DNA of 21,103 bases, from assembly GCA_026770585.1 (NCBI GenBank), contig MU646303.1, positions 805,361-826,463 on the forward strand, written 5' to 3'. This DNA comes from Baffinella frigidus. Lineage: Eukaryota; Cryptophyceae; Cryptomonadales; Baffinellaceae. The notes under the pieces were generated by a model. The model searched no databases. It was not told the origin of the DNA and saw only the letters and a program-made list of their open reading frames with translations. Made by a program: the position numbers and the translations under genes. Below, piece after piece: positions 2,549 to 20,471 of the stretch; position 1 is the stretch's first letter, and each line of letters begins with the position of its first letter.

Positions 2549-4108
2549 TCAGGGGATGTGGATGGCGGCGACGGCGACTGCGGCGTAGTAGAACTCTTGG
2601 GCGGAGTACATCGGTGAAGTACTCCGGAGTTCTTGCCCGTCCTCGAACTCCCCGAAGAAGAGGCGCGCGGCTTGCGCGGAGGACGGCGAAAGTGGCGGCG
2701 GCGCTGCTTGAGGTGCGATCGCCGTGTGGAACTCCCGAAGCCCGTGAGCGTGCTTGCGGAGTGCGACCTCGTCGTCGATGTAGCGGCGGAAGCCCTTGTC
2801 GCTGCGCCAGCGTCCTTGGACCTTGGCAAAACGTTCGGCCAAGCCGCAGCGTATGGTTTCTGAGACTAACCCGCGACGAGGCGAGTGCGTGGCGATGGTG
2901 CTTGGATCGAGGCCGAGCGCCGACGCCCACTGCTTGAGGCGGTTGTTGTACGCGTTGTAGGCCGTAGAAGCTTGCGCGGGGTTGAGGCCCCAGCTGTGGT
3001 GCGAGCCCGCGCGAGACTCCCGCTCTCCTGGCGCCGGGAAGACGTGTCCTGAAGCCGTCGTGGTCCAGAGCATGACGAGAGGAACTTCGGAGAGTCGTAG
3101 GTCTCCTTGCTCGTCGCGCCAGGGAGCGTAGTTGGCGCGCTCTTGGTCGGAGAGCGCGTCCCAGGTAGAGAAGACGGTCACGATGTAGCGATTGATGAGC
3201 GCGTCAGCCGACCACGGGTCTTGGGAAGGCAGAATCGCTGACCACTGGCCCTCGGCGTAGGCGTCCGTCTTGGAGCTGCAGAGGAAGATCCTGATCATCT
3301 CGTCGGAACGGAGGAGATCTCCCAGCCTGATGCCTTTCAGGTCGTCCCACCGTAGCGCCCCTTCAAAGGAGAGCGCCATCAGCACTAGGTGGGAGAGGCA
3401 CTGCGGAGAGGCGTCGCTGCCCCCGAAGAGACACACTGCCTCGCGCACGTGCTCGCTGTAGATTGGAGCCTTGGACTGGTTCTTAAAGCCAAGCTCGCGC
3501 AACCCTGCCTCGTGCATGATCCGTGGAACCAAGTGTTCGTACGGATCGGGTTCGTTTGCGAGCGACGCTGCAAATTTGAGGGCGCTACGCGTGTTGCAGA
3601 GAGAAGAGGCGGTGAAGCCCCCGGCCTCTAGACGCAGGATTTCGTGTGCTAGGAAGTCTGCTAGCTGCCACTCGTTGATTGGGAAAGGCGTGATGCCCAG
3701 CTGTTCGCAGTTGCGCACCCAACGCCTGCACGTGTGGGCATAGGAATCTAGCGTGGAAGACTTGCGGTAGCTCTGAGCTGCGCGCAGGACCAGTGCTTGG
3801 AGGCTCATCTCTGAGACCCCTGCAGGTTGCTCGCGCTGGTACAGGCGAGTGAGGGAGCTGGTGATCAGCTCGAGGCCTACTGCTGTGACGGCCTTATCGG
3901 GGCGGTCATCGGTCCTCCTCTCTTCCCGAAGACGCTGTGACGCGATCTTCAGGGATTCTAGGTCCGACCCCCCCGCAGGGAGGGGTGCGTGTGTGTGTGG
4001 AGGGGGGGCGCTAAGGCCTTGACGCGCCGCGGGTGCGTTCGTAGTGACTCTTGGTGGCAGCAACTTGCTGCGAAACAGAATGCTTCGCTCCCTCAGCGAG
4101 AGCGGCAT
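2549..4108 (-). CDS. tyrosine recombinase of DIRS-type element
   Basis: 519 residues. It catalyses strand cleavage and joining to integrate the circular cDNA of the element. The N-terminal half (about 105-215) is a helical core-binding region (SYRKSSTLDSYAHTCRRW). The catalytic half has Arg253 in EGALRWDDLKGI, Lys280 in SSKTD, His408-x-x-Arg411 in HSPRRG, Trp434 in GRWRSD (the usual second His/Trp position) and nucleophile Tyr443 in FRRYID, spaced as in DIRS/Crypton-type enzymes. All catalytic positions are present and the frame is uninterrupted, so the enzyme could be active. The first in-frame Met at 4108 gives a Pro-rich leader of about 50 residues; translation might start later. It lies 341 nt downstream of the RT gene, whereas RT and YR frames overlap in some DIRS elements. 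The tail (about 465-519) is low complexity. Confidence 0.88.
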   Translation of the reverse strand: MPLSLRERSILFRSKLLPPRVTTNAPAARQGLSAPPPHTHAPLPAGGSDLESLKIASQRLREERRTDDRPDKAVTAVGLELITSSLTRLYQREQPAGVSEMSLQALVLRAAQSYRKSSTLDSYAHTCRRWVRNCEQLGITPFPINEWQLADFLAHEILRLEAGGFTASSLCNTRSALKFAASLANEPDPYEHLVPRIMHEAGLRELGFKNQSKAPIYSEHVREAVCLFGGSDASPQCLSHLVLMALSFEGALRWDDLKGIRLGDLLRSDEMIRIFLCSSKTDAYAEGQWSAILPSQDPWSADALINRYIVTVFSTWDALSDQERANYAPWRDEQGDLRLSEVPLVMLWTTTASGHVFPAPGERESRAGSHHSWGLNPAQASTAYNAYNNRLKQWASALGLDPSTIATHSPRRGLVSETIRCGLAERFAKVQGRWRSDKGFRRYIDDEVALRKHAHGLREFHTAIAPQAAPPPLSPSSAQAARLFFGEFEDGQELRSTSPMYSAQEFYYAAVAVAAIHIP

Positions 4109-4449
4109 CTGCGCACGCGAGCGTTGTGAGCACTTGGAACCTGGTGCGCACGCTTAGCTCGGTGCGAACTTGCTTGGGAGTTTTGCAGTCAACAACTTCT
4201 AGCTGGGCGCGCAGACTTTTCTCGCGCGTGTTTCAAGCAAGCAGTGCTTTCAACCAAACTGAGGCAGAGCTAGCACTCATCCGTGCTACGAATCCGTTGT
4301 GCCTGCCTATCGTTGTCCACGGACATTGTTGCACAAGAAACAATCGGTCTTTGGACATTTGTTCTTGTCCTCGGGACAGGGGCATGGATGCTCTGACTGG
4401 GTTCGCAATTAACGAAACCATGTTTTTGTGAGGCGTGAGAGTTCAAAAT
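4109..4449 (-). other. spacer between RT and recombinase genes
   Basis: 341 nt inside the retroelement. Only a 62-codon minus-strand frame (4233-4421) of no recognised family is present. An imperfect foldback (ACAAGAAACAA near 4330 against TTGTTCTTGT near 4358) is visible. How the second gene is expressed (internal promoter, reinitiation, splicing) is not apparent. AATAAA at 4449-4454 overlaps the RT stop codon. Confidence 0.55.
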
Positions 4450-6678
4450 TTATTCAAAGTTGATTTGTAGGGCAAGGAGGTTTCCTCGCGGGAGATGCTT
4501 AGCCATTTCTTCCGCTGACTCAGCGTAGCTGCTCGGGTACGCGAGCAGTGACCGCGCGTCTCCTAGTGGGAGCACGCTCTGCACGAAGGGTGCTGGGCCG
4601 TGGTTTGTTCCTTTAGGGAATAACTTCGGCCACCAGACCGCGCCGCTCCAGTCTAAAATGACCAAGGTGCCTCTTGCTCGAAACTTCGCCATGTGCTCCA
4701 GCACTAGAGGGACGAGGGCGGGGGGGGGAAACGCGTAGTTGTTTTCCCCCCCCCAAGGCACCGAAAAAGAGTCACACCACTCGTTTCCCACATCGAACCA
4801 CGCTGAATTAAAGCGTGCGAGCTGGGTTGACTCTGAGGACGCGAACCGGTCTATCGTGTGCGGTCCTAGCTCCTTCTCTAGGTAGAGGAAGGTGGGCCGG
4901 TGGAGGCAATAGTCGTATTGCCCCCAGAACCCTAGTTCCTTAGCGTGCGAGAGCCAATCTGCGCGCACGTTTTCCTCTCGCGGGACCCACTTGGGTACCA
5001 TGGTCGCTCCTACGGACTGAAGGTCGTCCAGGAGTGCTATCGCTAAGCGGTGGATCTCAGGTTTGCGAGATCCGCCAAACACTCTGTCTGCGAACCGCGG
5101 GATGGTGCCCCCCAGGCACATCACGCAGGCCTGATTGTCGAACTGCAGCTGAACCGAGAGACCTCGGATCAACAGGCGGAAGACGGAAATGAGCTCGCGC
5201 GCAGCCCACATCTCTCTCAACGTGAAGGACCCCTGGATGAGGTCCGCCGGGAAGGAACCGGTAAACTCCAAACCCTCCATGCCCTGACGCGTGGCACACG
5301 CTAGGGTGAACCCCGGAGGAGCGTTCTGGAGGAGGTTTGCGACCAGCGCGGTGCTGTTCCCGGCGGGAGGAGCCCGAATCCACCCTCCATAGCCGGCAGC
5401 GCCGGCGTCTGTTGCCATGAGCCCGTCGATGGGGATGTCCGGGTGGACTGCCGCGATGTCGCGCCCATCTATCCGTTCGAGGTGTTGGAGCCACCAGCGG
5501 AGTTCGGCGCACGCCTCGGGCGACACGGTCACGATGCGGTCCCAGAGCCTCTTGTCTCGGGGGTCGTCCTCGGGGAAACGCAGCCTCTCGTTCTGTGCCG
5601 CGTAGCAGAAGCGCGTGCGGACCCGCACGTCCGGCCCCAAGCTGATCGTTGATGCTTGCAGGAGGCCGGTGACGCGAGCGACGGCCCGAGCGGTGACGCG
5701 CGGCCGCTGGAGCTCTAAGATGGGCTTGATGGCGGCGAAGATCGCCTCCTTCCTCTTCGGAGAGGTGCGGAACTTCCCGGACGTGAAATCAACCACTGTG
5801 CCTAGGGCTAGGAGCCGCGGCACTGGTTCTGACTCTCCGTGAGTCTTGCTGTGCTGGATTACGAAACCTAGCCGCTCTAAGTGGTAGATTACGAATCGCA
5901 CGTGCGTGCGAGCTTGCTTGGCAGAGCTCGCCGCGCCCGTGGTGTCGTCCATAAATTGAACTAGGTTGAGGCCGTGGTGGGCTCTCCAGTACTTAGTGAC
6001 TACCTTAAGGATTTTTGTGAGAAGGAAAGGAGCGACGCTTAATCCGAATGGGCAGGCGTTGAATTGGTAAAAGCAACCCTCCCATTCGATTCCTAGGAAC
6101 TGGCGGGAATCCTCATGGATTTCTATGTGATAATAGGCCGATTTTAAATCGACCGAGTATCCGTGGGAGGCGCCCGCGAAAACGGTCCTCCCCTCCTTGT
6201 CCAGGCTCTCGAACTTAAATTTGTAAGCCGAGAGATGCTTGTTCAACGGCCTACAGTTGAAAATGAGACGCCGTTTGGGGCCCTGAACGACGACCCCAAG
6301 CGCCATGACGCAGTACAGCGCTGCCTCTGGCACTTGCGACAGGACGCCCATCTCGATGGCGTCCCTGATCGACTCTGACACGAAGCTGGCGTGCTCCGTG
6401 CAGGATGGCTGGTTGGGACGCCTACACCTTTGTGGGGGGCCGTACGGGAATTGGAGGCGGTAACCTCCTTTCCCCACTACGGAGAGCACCAACTTGTCAT
6501 CGGTGATAGCTTGCCAGTTCTCGAACCGCAAGCCTAGTCTGCCTAGCATGTAAGGTAGTGCTGGCGCGTCGGCCGCCAGCGCTGCCTTGCCTGAGGGTTC
6601 GGCGCCTAGGCGCTCGAAGCGCTCATCGTCAGGGGTGTACCCTGGGTGCTCTCCCCCCGCGGACCCATCGTGCGCCAT
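4450..6678 (-). CDS. reverse transcriptase-RNase H of DIRS-type element
   Basis: 742 residues. Reverse transcriptase occupies about 100-300: basic motif KRRLIFNCRPLNKHL (135-149), motif A YSVDLKSAYYHI with Asp177, motif B CPFGLSVAPFLL (209-220), and motif C FMDD (242-245, in place of YxDD), followed by the LGF/LGTVVDF thumb region. RNase H follows at about 415-580 with the full acidic set Asp424 (ATDAGAAGYGGW), Glu489 (TLREMWA), Asp514 (QFDNQA) and Asp574 (ENVRADWLS). The C-terminal extension, IDRFASS, NNYAFPPPALVPLVL and LVILDWSGAVWWPKLF, is typical of DIRS-like polyproteins. It copies element RNA and degrades the hybrid. The frame is open and the catalytic residues intact. No protease or integrase is present, as expected for YR elements. 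The N-terminal 90 residues match nothing I know and may be a reduced gag remnant. Confidence 0.9.
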   Translation of the reverse strand: MAHDGSAGGEHPGYTPDDERFERLGAEPSGKAALAADAPALPYMLGRLGLRFENWQAITDDKLVLSVVGKGGYRLQFPYGPPQRCRRPNQPSCTEHASFVSESIRDAIEMGVLSQVPEAALYCVMALGVVVQGPKRRLIFNCRPLNKHLSAYKFKFESLDKEGRTVFAGASHGYSVDLKSAYYHIEIHEDSRQFLGIEWEGCFYQFNACPFGLSVAPFLLTKILKVVTKYWRAHHGLNLVQFMDDTTGAASSAKQARTHVRFVIYHLERLGFVIQHSKTHGESEPVPRLLALGTVVDFTSGKFRTSPKRKEAIFAAIKPILELQRPRVTARAVARVTGLLQASTISLGPDVRVRTRFCYAAQNERLRFPEDDPRDKRLWDRIVTVSPEACAELRWWLQHLERIDGRDIAAVHPDIPIDGLMATDAGAAGYGGWIRAPPAGNSTALVANLLQNAPPGFTLACATRQGMEGLEFTGSFPADLIQGSFTLREMWAARELISVFRLLIRGLSVQLQFDNQACVMCLGGTIPRFADRVFGGSRKPEIHRLAIALLDDLQSVGATMVPKWVPREENVRADWLSHAKELGFWGQYDYCLHRPTFLYLEKELGPHTIDRFASSESTQLARFNSAWFDVGNEWCDSFSVPWGGENNYAFPPPALVPLVLEHMAKFRARGTLVILDWSGAVWWPKLFPKGTNHGPAPFVQSVLPLGDARSLLAYPSSYAESAEEMAKHLPRGNLLALQINFE

Positions 6679-10554: not shown

Positions 10555-11040
10555 CAAAACCACAACCCCTGAACCCTGAACCTCAAACCCTAAACCCTAA
10601 ACCCTAAACCTTAAACCCCTACACCGTACAATATAAACCTTAAACCTTAACCACTAAACACTAAACCTTAAAACAAAACTCTAAAAAGCCAACCTTTCAA
10701 CAATGATTGCTCAAAACCCAAAATGAACCTCAAACTCTAAACCCTGAACCTCAAACCCTAAATCCAAACCCTTAAACCCTAAACCCTAAACCCTAAACCC
10801 TAAACCCTAAACCCTAAACCCTAAACCCTAAACCCTAAACTCCAAACTCCAAACCTCAACCCCTCAGATCCTAAACCCTAAACCCAAAATTCTAAACCCT
10901 ACACCCAAACCCCTAAACCTTAAATCCTAAACCCTAAACTCTGTCAACTCCAAACCGTCTACGCAAAACGCTCAACGCCAAATGCTCTACGCGTTACCCT
11001 CTACCGTAAATTCTAAACCCTGAACCGAAAACCCCAAACC
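10555..11040 (+). repeat. interstitial telomere-like array (CCCTAAA)
   Basis: About 0.5 kb of degenerate heptamers (CCCTAAA, CCCTGAA, CCTTAAA, CCTCAAA). Its core at 10777-10839 is nine perfect CCCTAAA units. The heptamer is the Arabidopsis-type telomere repeat (C-rich strand here). Decay increases away from the core. It could be a healed break, an insertion of telomeric DNA, or a large intron of the kind seen at 13983-14159, but no flanking exon is recognised. Confidence 0.92.
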
Positions 11041-11130
11041 CTTCAAAAACGCTCGATCTGATTGATCTGGGGTCTCTGCAAGGTGAGTCTCATGAGGTCT
11101 GAAAATGGACGATTTGTCTTTCTGTGAGTG

Positions 11131-12209: not shown

Positions 12210-12306
12210 TCGCAAGCAGTAGCTCACGCGTCCATATCTTCATCGATGGCTGTCTTCCCGGTGGTCACGCGGTAGTTCACAAGCCCCTGGTGTAGGGTTT
12301 AGGGTT

Positions 12307-12493
12307 CACACGGATGTCTGGGTTACAAGAACACGGGCCGTAAGAACCCGCACCGGATGTAGGGCCTGCATGTTCTTAATTTGGTGCCAGGGGATTGACT
12401 AAATCTCACGTTGAGTGAGACCAAATCTCACGTTTAGTGAGACACCGACCGAGGCTCGACCAAAGGTGTTCTTGTACCCCGGATATCCCTGTG
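12307..12493. mobile_element. 187-bp element with 28-bp imperfect inverted ends
   Basis: CACACGGATGTCTGGGTTAC... on the left matches the complement of the right end (GTGTTCTTGTACCCCGGATA...CTGTG) at 24 of 28 positions. The flanks on both sides are telomere-like (GTAGGGTTTAGGGTT left, GGTTAAGGGTTAAGGG right), so the element appears to lie inside a TTTAGGG-type array. Confidence 0.65.
12401..12444 (+). repeat. 22-bp tandem pair with internal palindromes
   Basis: AAATCTCACGTTGAGTGAGA plus CC, then nearly the same again. Each unit contains TCTCAC...GTGAGA, a 6-bp inverted pair around five bases. It lies within the 187-bp element. Confidence 0.8.
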
Positions 12494-12600
12494 TTTTTTT
12501 TGGTTAAGGGTTAAGGGTTAAGGGTTTAGGGTTTAGAGTTAAGGGTTCAGTGTTTAGGGTTTAGGGTTCAGGGGTTAGGGGTGAGGGGTTAGGGTTAATA
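12494..12600 (+). repeat. telomere-like array, G-rich strand
   Basis: GGTTAAGGG, GGTTTAGGG, GGTTCAGGG and related heptamers in tandem. A short piece (12290-12306) lies on the other side of the 187-bp element. Confidence 0.85.
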
Positions 12601-12685
12601 AATTGTTTTCTCGGAGAAGGTCCGGGGCAGCAACTAGACACCATAAGAGAACCACATCAGGGTGATGAGGCATGTGGTAAACCCC

Positions 12686-12720
12686 CCTGCAGACTCAAGG
12701 CGGAGCCTTAAGTCTGCAGG
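12686..12720. repeat. 16-bp hairpin
   Basis: CCTGCAGACTCAAGGC (12686-12701), loop GGA, then GCCTTAAGTCTGCAGG; one mismatch. It is followed by AAATCAACTTTTG, reminiscent of the hairpin elements at 13743 and 20472. Confidence 0.8.
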
Positions 12721-12770
12721 AAATCAACTTTTGCAATCGTTCGATTTGGTTCACTTCTGGTGGCTGGTGG

Positions 12771-13415
12771 ATGAAGAGCTGCTGGGGGCTGAAGTTTCCT
12801 CTGAAGCCACTTAACAGCCACCGAGGTCTTCACGGATGCAGTCCATCTAAACGATTTGTACAAGAATCTTATCCATTGCTAAGGATTCCAACAGGAATTT
12901 CCCCCGAGAATTCGGAGGAAATTATCTTGCAATCAATTATGTTTTTGAGAGAAACGCGCTGCAGGATTCGGGGAGAGGGAAAAGGGCTGAGGAGGGCCCG
13001 ACGCTGGAAGTGCTGCACGGGGCCGAGAAACACGGGGAGGGAAAGGGCCGAGACCGCAGGATTGTTCAAGCCCCCGATGAAGAATGGCGCGCGATTCCCG
13101 AGGACCTTTCGTGCGCACGCTTCCAACGGCCCCCGCACTGGCTGGCACATCTGCACCCAGTTCGACGGCGATGATACCGCGACGCACCTGCCCGTGGGCG
13201 AGACGCCGGTCAGGGAGCTGTCTGAAGACACGCGTTGCCCTTGGAGCCCTTTTCCCCTGAGGCGGGCCCGTTCAGGACCCCGTCCTCACAAGCTGCCATG
13301 GCTACATGGTGAGCGAGGATTGCACAGGGTGGGGGAGCAGGGGGAGGCTAGGGGAGGCAGCGTGCGGTCAGGGCCAGCGGCGGGGCACGGGATCTCATCT
13401 CCAGAAACGATGTAA
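12771..13415 (+). CDS. tandem gene unit 1, unknown protein
   Basis: An open frame of 214 codons. Its 3' half (from about 13104) is a unit repeated in tandem at 13445-13738 in the same frame. The shared protein reads HASNGPRTGWHICTQFDGDD, then TATHLPVGETPVREL, then PWLHGERGLHRVG, ending GISSPETM and a stop. In the GDDTATHLPV part the two copies differ only at third codon positions (13172, 13175, 13178), all silent. Unit 1 alone has a 75-bp in-frame insertion (13221-13295) flanked by AGCTG. The first 110 codons are not repeated and look less coding. Splicing is possible (GTGAGC at 13309; acceptor CACCCAG at 13160). I do not recognise the family. Confidence 0.4.
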   Translation: MKSCWGLKFPLKPLNSHRGLHGCSPSKRFVQESYPLLRIPTGISPENSEEIILQSIMFLRETRCRIRGEGKGLRRARRWKCCTGPRNTGRERAETAGLFKPPMKNGARFPRTFRAHASNGPRTGWHICTQFDGDDTATHLPVGETPVRELSEDTRCPWSPFPLRRARSGPRPHKLPWLHGERGLHRVGEQGEARGGSVRSGPAAGHGISSPETM

Positions 13416-13782
13416 AACTACTGTTTTCTAAAGTTAATTATCCCTTGAAAACAAGCCACGCTTCCAACGGCCCCCGCACTGGCTGGCACATCTGCACCCA
13501 GTTCGACGGCGACGACACAGCGACGCACCTGCCCGTTACCTTCATTAGTCAACCATTGAGGCTCATCACCTGTCCGACCGAGGCTCACACCGTGGGCGAG
13601 ACGCCGGTCAGGGAGCTGCCATGGCTACATGGTGAGCGAGGCTTGCACAGGGTGGGGGGGGAGGGGGGGGGGGGGGGAGGCAGCTTGCGGTCCAGGTCAG
13701 CGGCGGGGCAGGGGATCTCATCTCCGGAAACGATGTAAAAATACTGTTTTCTAAAGTTGATCATCCCTTGAAAACACGCCAC
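13116..13782 (+). repeat. 341-bp tandem duplication
   Basis: Unit 1 starts at 13116, unit 2 at 13457 (both CACGCTTCCAACGGCC). Each runs through the conserved coding part, a G-rich tract, GGGATCTCATCTCC, and ends in ACTGTTTTCTAAAGTT...CCCTTGAAAACA. They differ by a 75-bp insertion in unit 1 and a 57-bp insertion in unit 2, both multiples of three. Confidence 0.88.
13445..13738 (+). CDS. tandem gene unit 2, unknown protein
   Basis: 97-codon frame, the second copy of the unit in 13116-13415. It has a 57-bp in-frame insertion (13537-13593, flanked by CCGT) between LPV and GETPVREL, and lacks the 75-bp insertion of unit 1. The G-rich tract is longer in pure G but keeps the same codon count, giving a Gly run in place of EQGEARGG. 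Both units end in GISSPETM-stop. Retained frame despite indels argues for coding, but the lack of a recognised family and the short length keep confidence low. Confidence 0.35.
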   Translation: MKTSHASNGPRTGWHICTQFDGDDTATHLPVTFISQPLRLITCPTEAHTVGETPVRELPWLHGERGLHRVGGEGGGGGGSLRSRSAAGQGISSPETM

Positions 13783-13854
13783 TTTTGGCATATTTTGGGT
13801 CTGACACGCCAAAAGTGGCGTGTTTTCAAGGGAGAATCAACTTTAGAAAACAGT
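13743..13854. mobile_element. 112-bp foldback element
   Basis: ACTGTTTTCTAAAGTTGATC... at 13743-13789 pairs with 13808-13854 at 45 of 47 positions, with an 18-base loop. A single-arm copy ends the preceding duplication unit (13421-13454). The core TTTCTAAAGTTGA is shared with the large hairpin at 20472. The element provides the last codons and the stop of the minus-strand CX9C gene. Confidence 0.88.
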
Positions 13855-14093
13855 GTTTTGATATCGATTCCGGAGGTAAGGACGGGGCGGCGCACTTGAC
13901 GAAGGAGCTGAGCTGGCTGTCGCACTCCATCTCGACTTCCTGGAAAGCCCCCACCAGGTTCCTGTTCGCGCACTCTCGCACGCTGGTTTGGGGTTTGGGG
14001 TTTGGGGTTTTGGTGTTTGGTGTTTGGGGTTTGGGGTTTGGGGTTTGGGGTTTGGGGTTTTGTGTTTGGTGTTTGGTGTTTAGGGTTCAGGGA

Positions 14094-14139
<46 letters not shown>

Positions 14140-14305
14140 GGTCTCTTGGGGGGTTGAACCTGTTCTCCAGCTCCCCGCACAGCTGCTTGGAGCAGCGGTC
14201 CGGAGACGAGACAGGGTGTGTGCAGTTGCACGCCATGAACTCGAGGATCGGCCCAGAGCACGCCTCCGCCATCGCGCCCTCGGACGTCAGTTCCTTGGAC
14301 GCCAT
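13826..14305 (-). CDS. small CX9C (CHCH-like) protein, two exons
   Basis: Exon 1 is 14305-14160 (48 codons plus 2 nt) and exon 2 is 13982-13826; the intron is 13983-14159, GT-AG, phase 2. The 100-residue product has Cys16-x9-Cys26 (CSGPILEFMAC), Cys43-x9-Cys53 (CGELENSVREC) and Cys69-x9-Cys79 (CDSQLSSFVKC). The middle CX9C exists only after splicing, which strongly supports the exon join. Twin CX9C proteins are imported into the mitochondrial intermembrane space and oxidised by Mia40/Erv1. They serve in respiratory complex assembly or as subunits, e.g. complex I NDUFA8 or COX factors. EFMAC recalls NDUFA8-like proteins, but the match is too weak to name it. The start is the ATG at 14305; a longer in-frame Met lies at 14380. 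The last 15 or so residues and the TGA fall in a foldback element, so the C-terminus may be secondarily altered. Confidence 0.72.
13983..14159 (-). repeat. telomere-like array forming the CX9C gene intron
   Basis: On the coding (minus) strand the intron starts GTTCAACCCCCC and passes through CCCTCAA units, then CCCTAAA/CCAAACA and CCCCAAA units, ending CCCCAAACCAG before exon 2. Almost the entire 177-nt intron is degenerate telomere-like heptamer. Confidence 0.75.
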
Positions 14306-14503
14306 CCTGGAAGGAACGTGCTTGTGCAAGTGCGACAGCTGGGTGCTGCGGTAGGGTTGAGTTAGCTGGTAACTTGTCACGGTATCAGCTGAGTGCTGGT
14401 ATACGAGTTATCAGATATGTCAGATCTCAGCTAATATCACTGGGCAACCCCACCCTCACCCTCTAAAACGGAACCCCCGCCCAAACCACCAACTCCAAAC
14501 CAG
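14306..14503. other. intergenic, upstream of CX9C gene
   Basis: Short region with repeated ATCAG/GATATGTCAGATCTCAGC words and a C-rich stretch ending CCAAACCAG at 14503, which resembles the intron 3' ends seen elsewhere. Confidence 0.4.
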
Positions 14504-14649
14504 GCAAGATCCAGCACCAAGAAGAACACCTGAGATCGCATGCATGCCAGCCTTCCAGCACAACCCCGCTCCCAGGACAGTCCAAGACAGATCCGGTGAC
14601 AATTATCAGGTGGTGGGCAACCCCCTCATCACCGTCGAACGACAGCCGA
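14504..14649 (+). CDS. candidate internal exon, unknown protein
   Basis: Bounded by an acceptor in the context CTCCAAACCAG (the same AAACCAG end as four supported introns) and a consensus donor GTAAGT at 14650. It is open throughout in one frame, with residues such as SGDNYQVVGNPLITVERQP near its end. The frame remains open past the donor to 14852. No partner exons or family are recognised, so this is suggestive only. Confidence 0.3.
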
Positions 14650-14652
14650 GTA

Positions 14653-15019
14653 AGTACGCCCACCGGGCCCCCCCCAAAAAAGCAGCAGACGGGAAACACC
14701 ACGGCACGTATGCAGGCCGCCCACCGCCCCTAGCAAAGAGTGCACCCACACAGTTCTCATGCGAACCATTCCACGGTGTGCGGCACCTCCAGATCCCGGA
14801 AGCCGCTGAATTCCCACGCACAGACGCACCCAGCGGAAATCAGCGGAGATGAACGCACAAAGCGCCGGTGCAGGAAGATTGGCAGGCGCCGAGCACAGGG
14901 AACACACCTGGGAGCACGCCGGACCGAAGGCACGCAGCAGCCGCTTTAGGAACAATACCCTGCCGACACAGCAGCCCCCCGTGTCCACTCCCAACCCCTG
15001 CGGTTCCGCGTTTCTTGGT
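14653..15019. other. GC-rich stretch without a supported gene
   Basis: Overlapping frames on both strands (the longest on the minus strand, 14629-15102) lack domain or codon support. Contains C7/A6 homopolymers near 14669-14682. Confidence 0.4.
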
Positions 15020-15054
15020 GCTTGGGAGTGGTCACGTGACCGCTTGGGAGTGGT
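15020..15054 (+). promoter_or_regulatory. G-box palindrome between direct repeats
   Basis: The 12-bp palindrome GGTCACGTGACC (15030-15041), containing CACGTG, sits between two identical 13-mers GCTTGGGAGTGGT (15020-15032 and 15042-15054). It lies about 80 bp upstream of the start codon at 15135. CACGTG is a bHLH/bZIP target in plants and many eukaryotes; its use here is inferred from position. Confidence 0.45.
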
Positions 15055-15134
15055 ACCTTTCGGGCCGTAGCCGGAGCTGCTGGGGGGGTTGTCTTCATTC
15101 ATCTCGCCAGCCTCGGAGTTGATCCTCTTGAGGG

Positions 15135-15943
15135 ATGGACCTTCAAGGATGGATCTTACAGGCGACGGCCGCGCTCGCCAAGACCCAGGGCAAGGAGGGG
15201 ATCGACGCTGCGCTCCCGGAGTATCTCACCCCAGGTGTGTGATCTCGGTAGGGTCCGTGGTCGTTTTCTTCTGCTCACTGGGGGGACGGGCGGTGGCCAG
15301 GGTGATAGGGGCTGGCTTCGCCTCGGGCAGCATTAACAGTGCAGCTCTCTCCCCCTCTCTCTCGCTCTCTATCTCTCTCTCTCTCTCTCTGTGCTCGAGC
15401 ATCGCTATACGACACAAGTAGTTCCTGGCGCCAATTGGTGCAGGACCAGCCCGGCGACAATTGGCACCCGGAGGTGATGAGACCGGCCTTCGGCTGGTTC
15501 CAGATGAGGCCATGCTGCACCGGTCCTGCAGGACCAGCGTGGATTCACCAGCTCTCTGCTGGGTGCGTCGATGGTATCTGATCAGCCTGAGAGGAACGGC
15601 AGGCCATGAGTAGAAATACAGCTCAAAAAATCCCCTTGATCCTTGGGTAGGCACGTCATCGCAGCTCTACAGCGCAGCGGCGGCGTCAGCGTCCTCGCCG
15701 GACCCAGCTCCGGAAGAGACGCTCAAAGCCGCGGCGCAGCTGGCGCTGGCCGCATTGGAATGGCGCCGGGAGAGCAGGTACGCGCAGCCGGAGATGCTGC
15801 AGGCGGCGCAGCTCAAGTGCGCGGAGGAGTGCGGGCTGCTCTACCTGAGCCCGGTGCGCGCGACAGACGGGCGCTGCGTGGTCTACGGGCGAGCACGGCA
15901 GGATCCGTGGGACCCGGAGAGCGGGGAGACGCTGGCGCTGATG
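15135..15943 (+). CDS. CRAL-TRIO-like protein, first two exons (3' end unresolved)
   Basis: Exon 1 is 15135-15234: an ATG right after an in-frame TGA, encoding MDLQGWILQATAALAKTQGK and ending PEYLTP. Exon 2 is 15651-15943; the intron 15235-15650 is GTGTGT...GGTAG, phase 1, and the frame continues across the join. Exon 2 reads APEETLKAAAQLALAALEWR, then CAEECGLLYLSPVRATDGRC, then VVYGRARQDPWDP, ending LALM before donor GTACGT. Third positions are strongly G/C. The pattern helix-EWRRE, then YLSP, then DGRxVVYxRxRxDPW, resembles the start of a CRAL-TRIO (Sec14-like lipid-binding) domain. It stops before the lipid-pocket core, which must lie in later exons. A possible acceptor CACCAG at 16046 follows, but no convincing exon 3 is seen, so the gene may be truncated. 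Exon calls are good; the family is moderate. Confidence 0.55.
15344..15391 (+). repeat. TC microsatellite in intron 1
   Basis: CTCTCTCCCCCTCTCTCTCG then (TC)n, inside the first intron of the CRAL-TRIO-like gene. Confidence 0.9.
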
Positions 15944-16046
15944 GTACGTCTTTAGGGCTTAGGGTTTCGGGTTCGGGGCTTCGGGGTTTAGGGGTTTAGG
16001 GTTTCGGGTTCGCCCTGCCCACGCGGCGTGTGCTCCCTCCCACCAG
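15944..16046 (+). repeat. telomere-like sequence at start of an intron
   Basis: Directly after donor GTACGT come TTTAGGG, CTTAGGG, TTTCGGG, TTCGGGG and TTTAGGGG units to about 16012, then ordinary sequence to CTCCCACCAG at 16046. Here the telomere-like motif is in the G-rich orientation relative to the transcript, unlike the other introns. Confidence 0.6.
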
Positions 16047-16384
16047 CAATCCTTGGCAGCTTTTACCGGGTCCTTGCACGATCCGGGAATGATTTTTTTT
16101 AAAAAAAATATTCGTTGGACCCTACGGTAGGAAACGCTAGGGACCTCGAATTGCTGACGGGAGATACCGAAGAGATCTCATCGGGTTAGCTGAAAATCAC
16201 CACAGCACCCGACCCTGTTATAAGCTGCTACGGGTTGCTGGTGGTCGTGCAGCATGCTGATTGCCCCCGGACCTTCTGGCACACGTCTTGTACCAGGGAG
16301 GAAGCGTCGAATAATCGACGCTGTCACTCCGAGGACCTCATCAGCCTGGACAGAGAGCTGGCCTTCAGCCGGGGGCGTGCGCTT
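16047..16384. other. gene-free stretch
   Basis: Holds an 8T-8A palindrome (16093-16108), the palindrome CCTACGGTAGG (16121-16131) and no credible frame beyond a possible short exon after 16046. Confidence 0.45.
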
Positions 16385-16520
16385 CCCATTTGAATTGCTG
16401 ACATTGCTGATATCCTTTCCCATTTGAATTGCTGATATTGCTGATATCCTATCCCATTTGAATTGCTGATATTGCTGATATCCTATCCCATTTGAATTGC
16501 TGATATTGCTGATATCCTAT
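16385..16520 (+). repeat. 34-bp minisatellite, four copies
   Basis: CCCATTTGAATTGCTGATAT plus TGCTGATATCCTAT repeated head to tail from 16385, 16419, 16453 and 16487. The first unit has GACATT for GATATT and ends CCTTT. No spacers, hence not a CRISPR. Confidence 0.95.
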
Positions 16521-16528
16521 GTAACAGC

Positions 16529-16578
16529 CCTGAGATTCTGATGGTGGGAGTGTCTGGCAGGTGCGAGTGGCAGAGCAG
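16529..16578 (+). repeat. direct repeat flanking MITE, copy 1
   Basis: TGATGGTGGGAGTGTCTGGC... (40 nt from 16539) matches 16893-16932 at 38 of 40 positions, both preceded by CCTGAGAT. The 207-bp hairpin element lies between the two copies. Confidence 0.85.
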
Positions 16579-16608
16579 ATAAATCCGGCCACCTGACCCA
16601 CTAGCACG

Positions 16609-16815
16609 TAGAGCCAATCTGGTAGGACTTGGCCAGAGCGAACTTCGAACTAGCGATATTGCGAACTTCTAGATGGACTCTTTTGGACATGTAGTGTTTT
16701 AAATTCAAATTTTGCAGTATAAATCGGTGTTTACTAATAATTACGGTCCATCTAGAAGTTCGCAATCTCGCTAGTTCGAAGTTCGCTCTGGCCAAGTCCT
16801 ATTAGATTGGCTCTA
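16609..16815. mobile_element. 207-bp MITE-like hairpin element
   Basis: TAGAGCCAATCTGGTAGGAC... (16609-16677) pairs with 16747-16815 at 66 of 69 positions. The interior is about 69 bp and AT-rich. Outermost TA dinucleotides could be target-site copies, as in Tc1/mariner-derived MITEs. No reading frame and no transposase in the window with these ends. Confidence 0.88.
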
Positions 16816-16883
16816 ATGCATCCGCTGATTAAAAAAGGCTACATGTACAGGGGAGCCTACCACTAGACGGGGGAGGCTACCTT

Positions 16884-16932
16884 CCTGAGATGTGATGGTG
16901 GGAGTGTGTGGCAGGTGCGTGTGGCAGAGCAG
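16884..16932 (+). repeat. direct repeat flanking MITE, copy 2
   Basis: Partner of 16529-16578, followed by GAGGGTGGCGAGTGGCGAG and the microsatellite. Confidence 0.85.
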
Positions 16933-16976
16933 GCGAGGGTGGCGAGTGGCGAGGCTGTCGGGCCCGCCTTGCAGGT

Positions 16977-17006
16977 GCGAGCGAGCGAGCGAGCGAGCGA
17001 GCGAGC

Positions 17007-17042
<36 letters not shown>

Positions 17043-17158
17043 CAAAGCGAGCGAGGGAGAGCACGAGAGCGAGAGCGAGGGAGAGCGAGCGAGCGAGCGA
17101 GCGAGCGAGAGAGAGAGAGAGATCGAGAGAAAGCGAGCGAGCGAGCGAGCGAGAGACA
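16977..17158 (+). repeat. compound microsatellite (GCGA, GT, GA)
   Basis: (GCGA)n, (GT)n, (GA)n, then mixed GAGC/GAGA and (GCGA)n again. It produces open frames of alternating Arg/Glu/Ser on both strands that are artefacts. The sequence TTGCAGGTGCGAGC at its start is echoed by TTGCAGGTGCACCG at 17209, perhaps duplicated splice-donor contexts. Confidence 0.92.
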
Positions 17159-17267
17159 TGTAGTTTGGGGTTTAGGGGGATATGAGCTAGAGGGGCTCGC
17201 AGATCGCCTTGCAGGTGCACCGACGCAAGAAAACCATCTCCCTCACCCAGCAGCTCTAATTTCTGCG

Positions 17268-17352
17268 AACCCTACACCCTGAACCCTGAACCCTAGCCGC
17301 TACACCCTACACCCTGCACCCTACACCCTACACCCTACACCCCACACCCCAA
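17268..17352 (+). repeat. telomere-like array (CCCTACA variant)
   Basis: CCCTACA and CCCTGAA heptamers in tandem, C-rich on the plus strand. Could be an intron of the plus-strand gene region, but flanking exons are not identified. Confidence 0.8.
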
Positions 17353-17525
17353 CCGGCACCAGAGCAGTAGAGCTTCGTACCGCAAACATAAAAGGCCGGC
17401 GTGTGACTGCACCGCATCGCTCGTCGCTCCAGCCAGCCTCCGCCCGTGCCACTTTACATCCTTTCGGTCCTTGAGGTTTTTCGAGCTCCCAACACAGGCG
17501 GACACTGGAACTGGTTTTGTAGAAA
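17353..17525. other. unassigned sequence
   Basis: No supported frame. CAGCCTCCGCCCGTGCCAC (17434-17452) recurs with two changes at 17705-17723. Confidence 0.4.
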
Positions 17526-17587
17526 GGCCATGCTTCCTTTCGGATCACATCACGCCCCCCTGGCCATGCTTCCTTTCGGATCACATC
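17526..17587 (+). repeat. 26-bp direct repeat, two copies
   Basis: GGCCATGCTTCCTTTCGGAT plus CACATC at 17526-17551 and 17562-17587, a 36-bp period. Confidence 0.92.
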
Positions 17588-17622
17588 GGGGCCCCATTTA
17601 CAGAGGATCGCGGCAGAAACCG

Positions 17623-18018
17623 GCAGTCGTTCTCAAACCACTCACAGCACCCCATCATCCTCATCCACCTGAAACACTTGATCAGGTTGCCGTAGTGCTC
17701 GAACCAGCCTCCGTCCGTGTCACGTTCCAGCATGCACCCCATCATCCTAATCCATGATCTGAAACACTTGAGCAGGAGGCGGTGGTTCTCGGCCTAACTG
17801 GGTGCCAAAGGACACGTATCGAGATCTGCCTCCAGCCTCAGGCTGGAGGCGGAGACTGGAGGGCGGAGACTGGCTGGAGCCCTGCCACTTAACAGCAGGC
17901 GTGCACCCCATGATCCAATCATCTAACCCCCGACCTGGAACACTTGAACAGGTGGCCGTGGTGCTGGACCGAACCGGGTCCCACGAGACACACACCGAGC
18001 TGAGTCGGGTTGGCTGAT
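17623..18018 (+). repeat. tandem exon-like cassettes (VAVVLxxTG)
   Basis: Degenerate copies of the exon at 18197-18284 begin after ...CAG at 17686 (VAVVLEPA), 17776 (EAVVLGLTGCQRTRIEI) and 17952 (VAVVLDRTGSHETHTELS). A trace lies at 17623. Each is preceded by an intron-like segment with CACCCCATCATCC-like and GAAACACTTGANCAG-like words. The 17686 copy diverges after eight codons. The 17952 copy has an in-frame TGA about 20 codons in unless spliced. At 17829-17849 a perfect palindrome CCTCCAGCCT-C-AGGCTGGAGG interrupts the 17776 copy. Confidence 0.6.
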
Positions 18019-18196
18019 GGCGTGCACACTCATCACGCGATACACACACCTCTTCACGTCATCAACACACTGCTCGCCTCGGTACAATTCTCACGTTGCC
18101 GCACTGGGTTCCTGGTACACTTCCGTCAACTTCCGAGCGGAAACCAGCCTGGGCGCACCAACCCCCCACCCTCATCTAACCCACGATCCGAAGCAG

Positions 18197-19084
18197 GTGG
18201 CTGTAGTGCTGGACCTGACAGGGTGCCACCATACGCACATCGAGATCTCGACCGCCATGTCGCACCTCGCCGCGGGCTTTCCTGGTTTTCGAAACCCGAA
18301 ACCCGAAACCCCGAACCCGAAACCGAAATTCGAAACCCGAACCCGAAACCGAAATTCGAAACCCGAACACCGAAACCCGAAACCCTACACCCTAAACCTC
18401 ACACCCTTCACCCTACACCCTACACTCCACACCCTACACCCTACACCCTGCACCCAAAACTTTCAACTCTAACCCATAAAACCCAAACACTAAACCCTAA
18501 ACCCCAAACACCAAACTCGAAACCAGGCCTCCTCAGCTCACTCACGCTCCTCAACGTCCCGCCGCAGCTCGAGACCACGGTCACGCACACCCTCAACCCT
18601 CAACCCTAAACCCGAAACCCCAAACACTAAACCCTGCACCCAAAACCCTGAACCCTAAACCCGGAACTCTGAACCCTGAACCCTAAACCCTGAACCCTAA
18701 ACCCTAGATCCGAAACCCTAAACCAGGTCACGGACCTTCTACTGCTATCGTCACCCGTGGCGCGCGAACGCGTAAACCCCACACCCTAAACCCTGAACCC
18801 CACACCCTAAACCCTTAGCGCCAAACGCCAAACGCCAAACACCAAACCCCAAACACCAAACCCCAAACCCCAAACCCCAACCCCCACACCCCACACCCCA
18901 CACCCCAAACCCCAAACCCAAAACCCGAAACCCCAAACCCCAAACCCCGAACCCCAAACCTGAAACCCCAAACCAGGTACGCTGGTGGCCGCTGGGTGCT
19001 GAAATTCCCGCGGAGGCAACGGCTCATCTTCTGGAGCAGGTTTCACTTTGGAACATGTTTCATTCTAATGAATTTGGTCAGTGA
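18197..19084 (+). CDS. unknown protein, four exons with telomere-like introns
   Basis: Exons are 18197-18284, 18527-18579, 18727-18771 and 18977-19084 (stop TGA). Introns are all GT...AAACCAG and their removal leaves one open frame: VAVVLDLTGCHHTHIEISTA, MSHLAAGFPG, LLSSLTLLNVPPQLETT, VTDLLLLSSPVARER, VRWWPLGAEIPAEATAHLLE, QVSLW. The 97 residues are Leu-rich and helix-prone. I recognise no family. The 5' start is not found: the first listed exon begins at an acceptor, and upstream copies of it at 17686-18018 may be alternative or dead exons. The last exon may instead end at a donor GTTTCA after LLEQ. A second copy of AEATAHLL at 19247-19270 differs only by silent changes, which supports coding. 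In-frame joining at three introns makes chance unlikely, but expression is unproven. Confidence 0.5.
18285..18526 (+). repeat. telomere-like intron A
   Basis: Starts GTTTTCGAAACCCGAAACCC, continues with CCCGAAA, CCCTACA and CCCTAAA heptamers and ends CTCGAAACCAG. 242 nt, phase 1. Confidence 0.65.
18580..18726 (+). repeat. telomere-like intron B with junction duplication
   Basis: Starts GTCACGCACACCC, continues with CCCTCAA, CCCTAAA, CCCTGAA heptamers and ends CTAAACCAG. The next exon begins GTCACG, identical to the first six intron bases (with the preceding G, seven bases match). 147 nt, phase 0. Confidence 0.7.
18772..18976 (+). repeat. telomere-like intron C
   Basis: Starts GTAAACCCCACACCC, continues with CCCTAAA then CCCCAAA/CCCCACA heptamers and ends CCCAAACCAG. 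GTA occurs at both junctions. 205 nt, phase 0. Confidence 0.7.
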
Positions 19085-20113: not shown

Positions 20114-20157
20114 TGAACAGCCTTCAGATTCAGAGGGGGGGGGCGTCTGGCGTGTCA

Positions 20158-20262
20158 CCCTAGACCCTCGACCCACGACCCTGGACCCACGACCCTGGAC
20201 CCTAGACCCTAGACCCTAGACCCTAGACCCTAGACCCTAGACCCTAGACCCCAGACCCTACC
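20158..20262 (+). repeat. CCCTAGA heptamer array
   Basis: At least eight uninterrupted CCCTAGA units (about 20199-20250), preceded by CCCTGGA/CCCACGA variants. It is a one-base variant of the CCCTAAA telomere heptamer homogenised over the block. Confidence 0.9.
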
Positions 20263-20471
20263 CTCAAGGACGTTGCGTGCAGTGCTCTGGCCCAGAGAGA
20301 TGCCCCTGTGTCAACACAATCTCCCGGGATTAGCTACTGAGACACGGGGAGGTTGGTTGTCTTTCCTGAACCGCCTGCCGGCTTCGTTGCGTCTCCCTGG
20401 GAATACACTGCTAGGGCGACGTTTTTGTATTAGTCAACTCAAGGCGAAAATCCAAGTACGCCGAACGTCCA
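20263..20471. other. unassigned sequence before the long hairpin
   Basis: A 78-codon frame (20273-20509) without recognisable domain. Nothing else seen. Confidence 0.4.

Follow-up and report, generated by a model that had tools for sequence, protein, structure and literature searches.

The locus and its two genes

The window described here is a 21,103-nucleotide (nt) stretch of contig MU646303.1 of the cryptophyte Baffinella frigidus, in which an intron made almost wholly of degenerate telomere repeat interrupts a gene on the minus strand (gene A) and three similar introns are predicted in a gene on the plus strand (gene B). CCCTAAA, which reads TTTAGGG on the opposite strand, is a telomere unit. 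An earlier note on this DNA had drawn attention to four arrays of CCCTAAA-like heptamers in the transcript sense of these genes and had proposed that they are introns. All four lie where it had placed them, start with GT, end in AAACCAG and measure 177, 242, 147 and 205 nt. Arrays were called with a cyclic seven-state repeat hidden Markov model (HMM) for CCCTAAA that allows substitutions and insertions or deletions, N being read as G and excluded from the denominators of array fractions, and by this measure the four are 90, 98, 94 and 100% array. Direct reading confirms that their removal keeps the frame open, in phases 2, 1, 0 and 0. As to their being introns, the claim holds for the array of gene A, whereas the three of gene B, which have no protein match, are candidates. 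The features of gene A are as follows, in the order of transcription.

14160..14305, minus strand: gene A exon 1 (ATG at 14305); residues 1-48 of protein P0001, 100%
13983..14159, minus strand: intron A1, 177 nt, GTTCAACC...AAACCAG, 90% C-rich-sense array (HMM fraction); absent from P0001
13896..13982, minus strand: gene A exon 2; P0001, 100%
13188..13895, minus strand: intron A2, 708 nt, array fraction 0; placed by P0001
13055..13187, minus strand: gene A exon 3; P0001, 100%
12287..13054, minus strand: intron A3, 768 nt, 16% array (array blocks), ends CCCTAAACCCTACACCAG; placed by P0001
12227..12286, minus strand: gene A exon 4, final residues before the stop; P0001, 100%

A search with the spliced product of gene A against 5.8 billion proteins returned two matches, P0001 and P0002. 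P0001 is an open reading frame (ORF) from an MMETSP transcript, and 142 of its 142 residues map to the window over four exons separated by three introns; A1 (13983-14159) is therefore spliced out. On this match, P0001 comes from this organism or from one almost identical to it. P0002 comes from a 1,735-base contig, genomic or transcript, and is 91% identical to the gene A product over 69 residues with no gap over the A1 site. Against Pfam the spliced product gave sub-threshold matches only, DUF3535 at 19.7 bits (cut-off 26.2) and CX9C at 11.4 bits (cut-off 26.4).

Gene B is a prediction, and so are its three introns, which follow the same pattern as A1.

18285..18526, plus strand: candidate intron B1, 242 nt, 98% array; GT...AAACCAG, frame kept
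18580..18726, plus strand: candidate intron B2, 147 nt, 94% array; GT...AAACCAG, frame kept; its initial GTCACG recurs where the next exon begins
18772..18976, plus strand: candidate intron B3, 205 nt, 100% array; GT...AAACCAG, frame kept

The spliced product of gene B found nothing at E<=10 in a protein search (113 candidates) and no Pfam match at E<=10.

Array introns in dynein and chaperonin genes

Genes outside the window were chosen by protein family, dynein heavy chain (DHC_N2) and chaperonin (Cpn60_TCP1), and not by repeat; array-bearing introns recur in four of the five genes picked in this way. Together with gene A they provide 33 introns in six genes, from which the three candidates of gene B are excluded, and the counts depend on such choices of loci and models. 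The exons join exactly, as expected of spliceosomal introns, by transcript-derived protein in 19 cases and by alignment to solved proteins in 14. Introns are designated A (gene A), D (dynein), T (CCT-alpha, on C94) and delta, gamma or zeta.

The dynein gene was modelled on C65, one of three scaffolds with dynein matches (C86 and C23 were left out), as a fragment of 850 amino acids with five introns. Residues 2-849 align to the dynein 1-beta heavy chain 8glv_Co, which we take to be a Chlamydomonas protein, with gaps elsewhere and none at the junctions. All four chaperonin places were modelled, those of CCT delta, gamma and zeta in part only. CCT-alpha comprises 520 codons in 17 exons and was assembled from three overlapping loci. 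The transcript-derived protein P0003 matches it at 520 of 520 residues across 16 introns, 15 of them with arrays, and all 16 introns are therefore supported; in addition, an alignment of the final 267 residues of the product with T-complex protein 1 alpha (9fqr_IZ) is gap-free at the seven junctions that fall there. The nearest protein with a named source, presumably Hemiselmis, stands at 81%, in keeping with a cryptophyte. The CCT delta, gamma and zeta fragments contain four, three and two introns respectively, without a junction gap against solved proteins.

An array in the C-rich (CCCTAAA) sense is present in 27 of the 33 introns (25 of 30 without gene A). It makes up at least half of the intron in 17 (16 of 30 without gene A), and array accounts for 4,598 of the 12,313 intron bases; in D4 the array (44%) is a borderline case, made of a GAACCAG-type repeat. 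The proposal that telomere-type arrays are spliced as introns is thus borne out on both strands and in housekeeping genes, often with the array as nearly the whole intron (at least 90% in 10 of 33). The arrays are excised and their orientation is biased. They also resemble interstitial telomeric sequences in being telomere-type tandem repeat inside a chromosome, with unique flanks, and are placed between coding exons at the loci of six genes, that of gene A included.

The assembly that holds the window (382 Mb in 1,364 contigs) is gapped, with 15 of 20 sampled 10-kb genome stretches N throughout and three more 78-96% N, and the array introns D1 and T13 contain N. It could therefore be supposed that the assembler placed arrays between exons, or that the interrupted genes are dead. 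For gene A and CCT-alpha the latter is refuted, and the transcript-derived proteins agree with the spliced exons at every one of 142 and 520 residues. Conserved proteins are moreover gap-free at every junction in four more genes, and most array introns are without N. As a general account, artefact or pseudogenes can hardly be credited; the reading stays for gene B, whose product had no match in the protein search.

Splice sites and array ends

Donors are GT in 31 introns and GC in two, and all 33 acceptors are AG (31 CAG, two TAG), an agreement with the GT/GC-AG rule that is partly built in, because the junctions were positioned under it. The GC donors are those of dynein D4 (C65 L011:1018-1161) and CCT-alpha intron 16 (C94:461640-461818). 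A G forms the first base of the next exon in 31 of 33 cases, the upstream exon ends in AG in 16 of 33, and only some introns have a CTNAY branch-point-like motif in their final 50 nt. In ten introns, D1, D3, D5, T4, T6, T10, T12, T13, T16 and gamma1, no more than 10 nt separate the array from either splice site.

Counting both strands, the window has eight copies of AAACCAG, and four of the eight are the ends of the four arrays, which is not chance. As the mark of an intron family, however, the shared end that the earlier note had emphasised did not hold up: it is exact in three of 33 introns (A1, D3, delta2), others ending for example in AACGCAG, CGGGCAG, TAAACAG or CCCTAG, and the general feature is CAG|G instead. 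A further suggestion, that such an array needs only a terminal CAG to act as an acceptor, is supported in part, by the CAG ends and the exonic G that follows in 31 of 33 introns each, and by the genome at large. Of the 1,412 occurrences of AACCCTAAACCAG genome-wide, 1,009 (71%) have G as the next base, which is the context of a CAG|G acceptor, against about 28% expected, where the sites are not independent of one another and the expectation is base composition, not a matched control. AACCCTAAACCA followed by A, C or T is found 5,578 times genome-wide; 99 of 100 listed sites of this non-G class, read by eye, comprised 78 CCAT (which occurs naturally as a variant unit), 12 CCAC and nine CCAA. 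CCAG is accordingly not the commonest continuation; judged by this small sample, it outnumbers CCAC or CCAA about two- to threefold.

Some introns also carry copies of the adjoining exons. In ten of the 33, the flanking exon of the intron itself gives a better local match than does any flank of another gene. Seven strong exon-edge copies (score >=33), decayed and touching the exon edge, lie in A2, T2, T5, T7, T14, delta4 and gamma2, and that of A2, at 13457-13528, is 72 nt long and copies the beginning of exon 3. Such copies may be duplications made during break repair, or tandem duplications of splice sites.

Orientation of the arrays and splice silence

The CCCTAAA unit contains neither GT nor AG, and a perfect sense array offers no cryptic splice sites; the reverse unit, TTTAGGG, has one AG and one GT. 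A C-rich array would hence be invisible to the spliceosome until the CAG is reached, and the C-rich bias may well exist because the sense unit lacks both dinucleotides while the reverse has both in each unit. The single orientation would then be maintained by selection. Consistent with this, A-to-G changes within the arrays that create an AG (positions 6 and 7, with 11 and 8 changes) are rarer than the harmless change at position 5 (63 changes).

Several observations weigh against assigning so general a role to splice-silent arrays derived from telomeres. Six of the 33 introns (A2, T9, delta4, gamma2, zeta1, zeta2) have no array, and arrays are therefore not required; one, CCT-alpha intron 3 (T3), has a G-rich array in the opposite orientation alongside a C-rich one. 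The dinucleotide totals inside the arrays match the expectation from position frequencies (AG 28 against 24.6, GT 8 against 9.1), in a test of 3,090 array dinucleotides from the introns of gene A and dynein, the last seven of CCT-alpha, three of delta and two of gamma. Since these totals are as expected, and the processes that make arrays could favour certain variants, selection is not proven. A signal of target duplication at the splice sites, treated below, was also lost on held-out introns.

On balance it is probable that, in this organism, the body of many ordinary spliceosomal introns consists largely or wholly of degenerate telomere-type repeat, with one orientation favoured and with arrays that would derive from breaks.

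Origin of the arrays

It is proposed that telomeric DNA, added at chromosome breaks or captured there, may have brought the arrays into genes, a proposal less sure than that on their orientation. Some probably became introns on arrival in an exon, while others would have landed in pre-existing introns. In the case of birth in an exon, the donor would arise from a G adjoining TAAACCC and the acceptor from CC plus an AG at the target. Telomerase priming on a 3' end in ...CTGG, or capture of an end, would write CCCTAAACC beside an exonic AG and so provide an acceptor at birth. The C-rich strand being silent in splicing, insertion would be harmless in one orientation only. Whether addition or capture of telomere repeat at breaks inside genes is a main source of new introns in the lineage is a different matter, and this stronger proposition is put forward tentatively, as one that is rather doubtful on present evidence.

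The arrays could also be thought of as late arrivals, telomere-type repeats that landed or expanded inside old introns and now serve as filler and not as a source of introns. Introns tolerate repeats, and the genome, searched on both strands, has 53,120 overlapping matches to three consecutive perfect units, against 27 for the reversed pattern. The array is one block of a longer intron in A3, D2, T1, T3, T7, delta1 and delta2, and the window holds further arrays outside its gene models. Passive filling would, however, lead one to expect fewer cases than the ten introns listed above in which an array lies so close to both splice sites. A further point against filling may come from P0008, a CCT-alpha relative of 90% identity (eight members, seven contigs, the longest 113 kb), which is gap-free across the 13 junctions that follow intron 3; should this record be unspliced genomic DNA, the relative lacks those introns. 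P0008 opens with 21 residues of unrelated sequence immediately ahead of exon 4, like read-through from an intron, as if a single intron were left in that relative, again provided that the record is unspliced genomic DNA. A scan of prokaryote contigs found no relative. Filling of old introns is given a chance just short of even.

A third route to be weighed is a mobile element. Introners are reportedly transposon-derived introns, the names attached to them being Huff et al. 2016 and Roy et al. 2023. Here this would mean an element with a telomere-like body whose target-site duplication supplies one splice site. Direct repeats between the intron start and the start of the next exon were seen in A2 (8/10), B2 (8/10) and T6 of that test list (7/10), and over 15 confirmed introns the duplication reached p=0.0038 (positions 3-6). 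On nine held-out introns, however, it gave p=0.61; all 24 introns taken together gave p=0.025 (positions 3-6) and 0.13-0.15 over longer spans. No array is present in A2, which has the direct repeat, and apart from the repeat neither a shared element nor terminal inverted repeats were seen by eye, a systematic search not having been made. An introner origin is accordingly judged improbable. Target-site duplication at the splice sites, which was first noticed by eye and did not survive the held-out introns, is not claimed.

Relation to known systems

Four published systems invite comparison and are cited here from the available extracts of the respective papers. Interstitial telomeric sequences have been inserted at double-strand breaks in primates, rodents and horse (PMC7215372). 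The arrays resemble them as telomere-type repeats inside chromosomes for which entry during break repair is proposed, and differ in that they form intron bodies with a strand bias, splicing not being the subject of that work as extracted (PMC7215372). Like introners, the arrays are a repeated sequence that in many genes extends from close to an intron's donor as far as its acceptor (PMC9860276), but the body is a heptamer array and the held-out introns show no target duplication. The introner survey, according to its extract, discarded low-complexity families, and array introns would therefore not be listed there (PMC9860276).

In Amorphochlora amoebiformis, lineage-specific introns with [AT]n simple repeats occur at AG|GN sites (PMC12730881). 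These too are protist introns with a simple repeat at AG|G sites, and there they are new introns; the repeats are AT repeats, found in half of the introns of a small ribosomal protein gene set, in contrast to the telomere-type heptamers of one orientation seen here (PMC12730881). The telomeric Y' elements of yeast contain introns (PMC6726248), which are likewise tied to DNA close to telomeres. The Y' intron sits in a subtelomeric repeat family, and a telomere-repeat body is not described for it in the extract of that paper (PMC6726248).

A literature search limited to open-licence PubMed Central text found no account in which telomere-type arrays commonly make up the body of introns. Introners, simple-repeat introns and interstitial telomeric sequences inserted at breaks are known kinds, and what appears to be new is the intron body of telomere-type repeat. 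The origin of new introns is an old open question, and the best-known mass sources of them are, to our knowledge, transposon-like introners. A chromosome-end repeat that occupies 25 of 30 sampled housekeeping-gene introns, nearly always in one orientation, would point to another source or filler of introns. In practical terms, masking of simple repeats ahead of gene prediction could hide real introns in this genome.

Other arrays and neighbouring features

Four further arrays of the window were detected by the HMM, three of them also by TRF and the fourth with reference to an adjoining frame.

10557..11042, plus strand: the window's longest array, 486 nt, outside gene models (HMM, TRF)
17268..17352, plus strand: array outside gene models (HMM, TRF)
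20157..20267, plus strand: array of CCCTAGA-type units with nine internal AG, outside gene models (HMM, TRF)
15951..16010, minus strand: array right after a GTACGT that follows an exon-like plus-strand open frame, the whole at 15643-16010 (HMM, frame)

The last of these could be a G-rich-sense exception to the strand rule, if GTACGT is a plus-strand donor.

Beyond the window, short arrays lie outside the gene model downstream of the modelled part of CCT zeta, and at L027 2000-9500 (minus strand) many arrays, mostly of one orientation, are placed between repeated and decayed exon-like pieces.

The remaining features of the window are of other kinds. At 2549-6678 on the minus strand a reverse transcriptase ORF (PF00078) adjoins an ORF of 519 amino acids without a Pfam match, a pair reminiscent of a DIRS-like retroelement equipped with a tyrosine recombinase. 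An ORF with an RWP-RK domain (PF02042) lies at 523-1398 on the minus strand, and a 34-bp tandem repeat in four copies, 98% alike, occupies 16384-16520.

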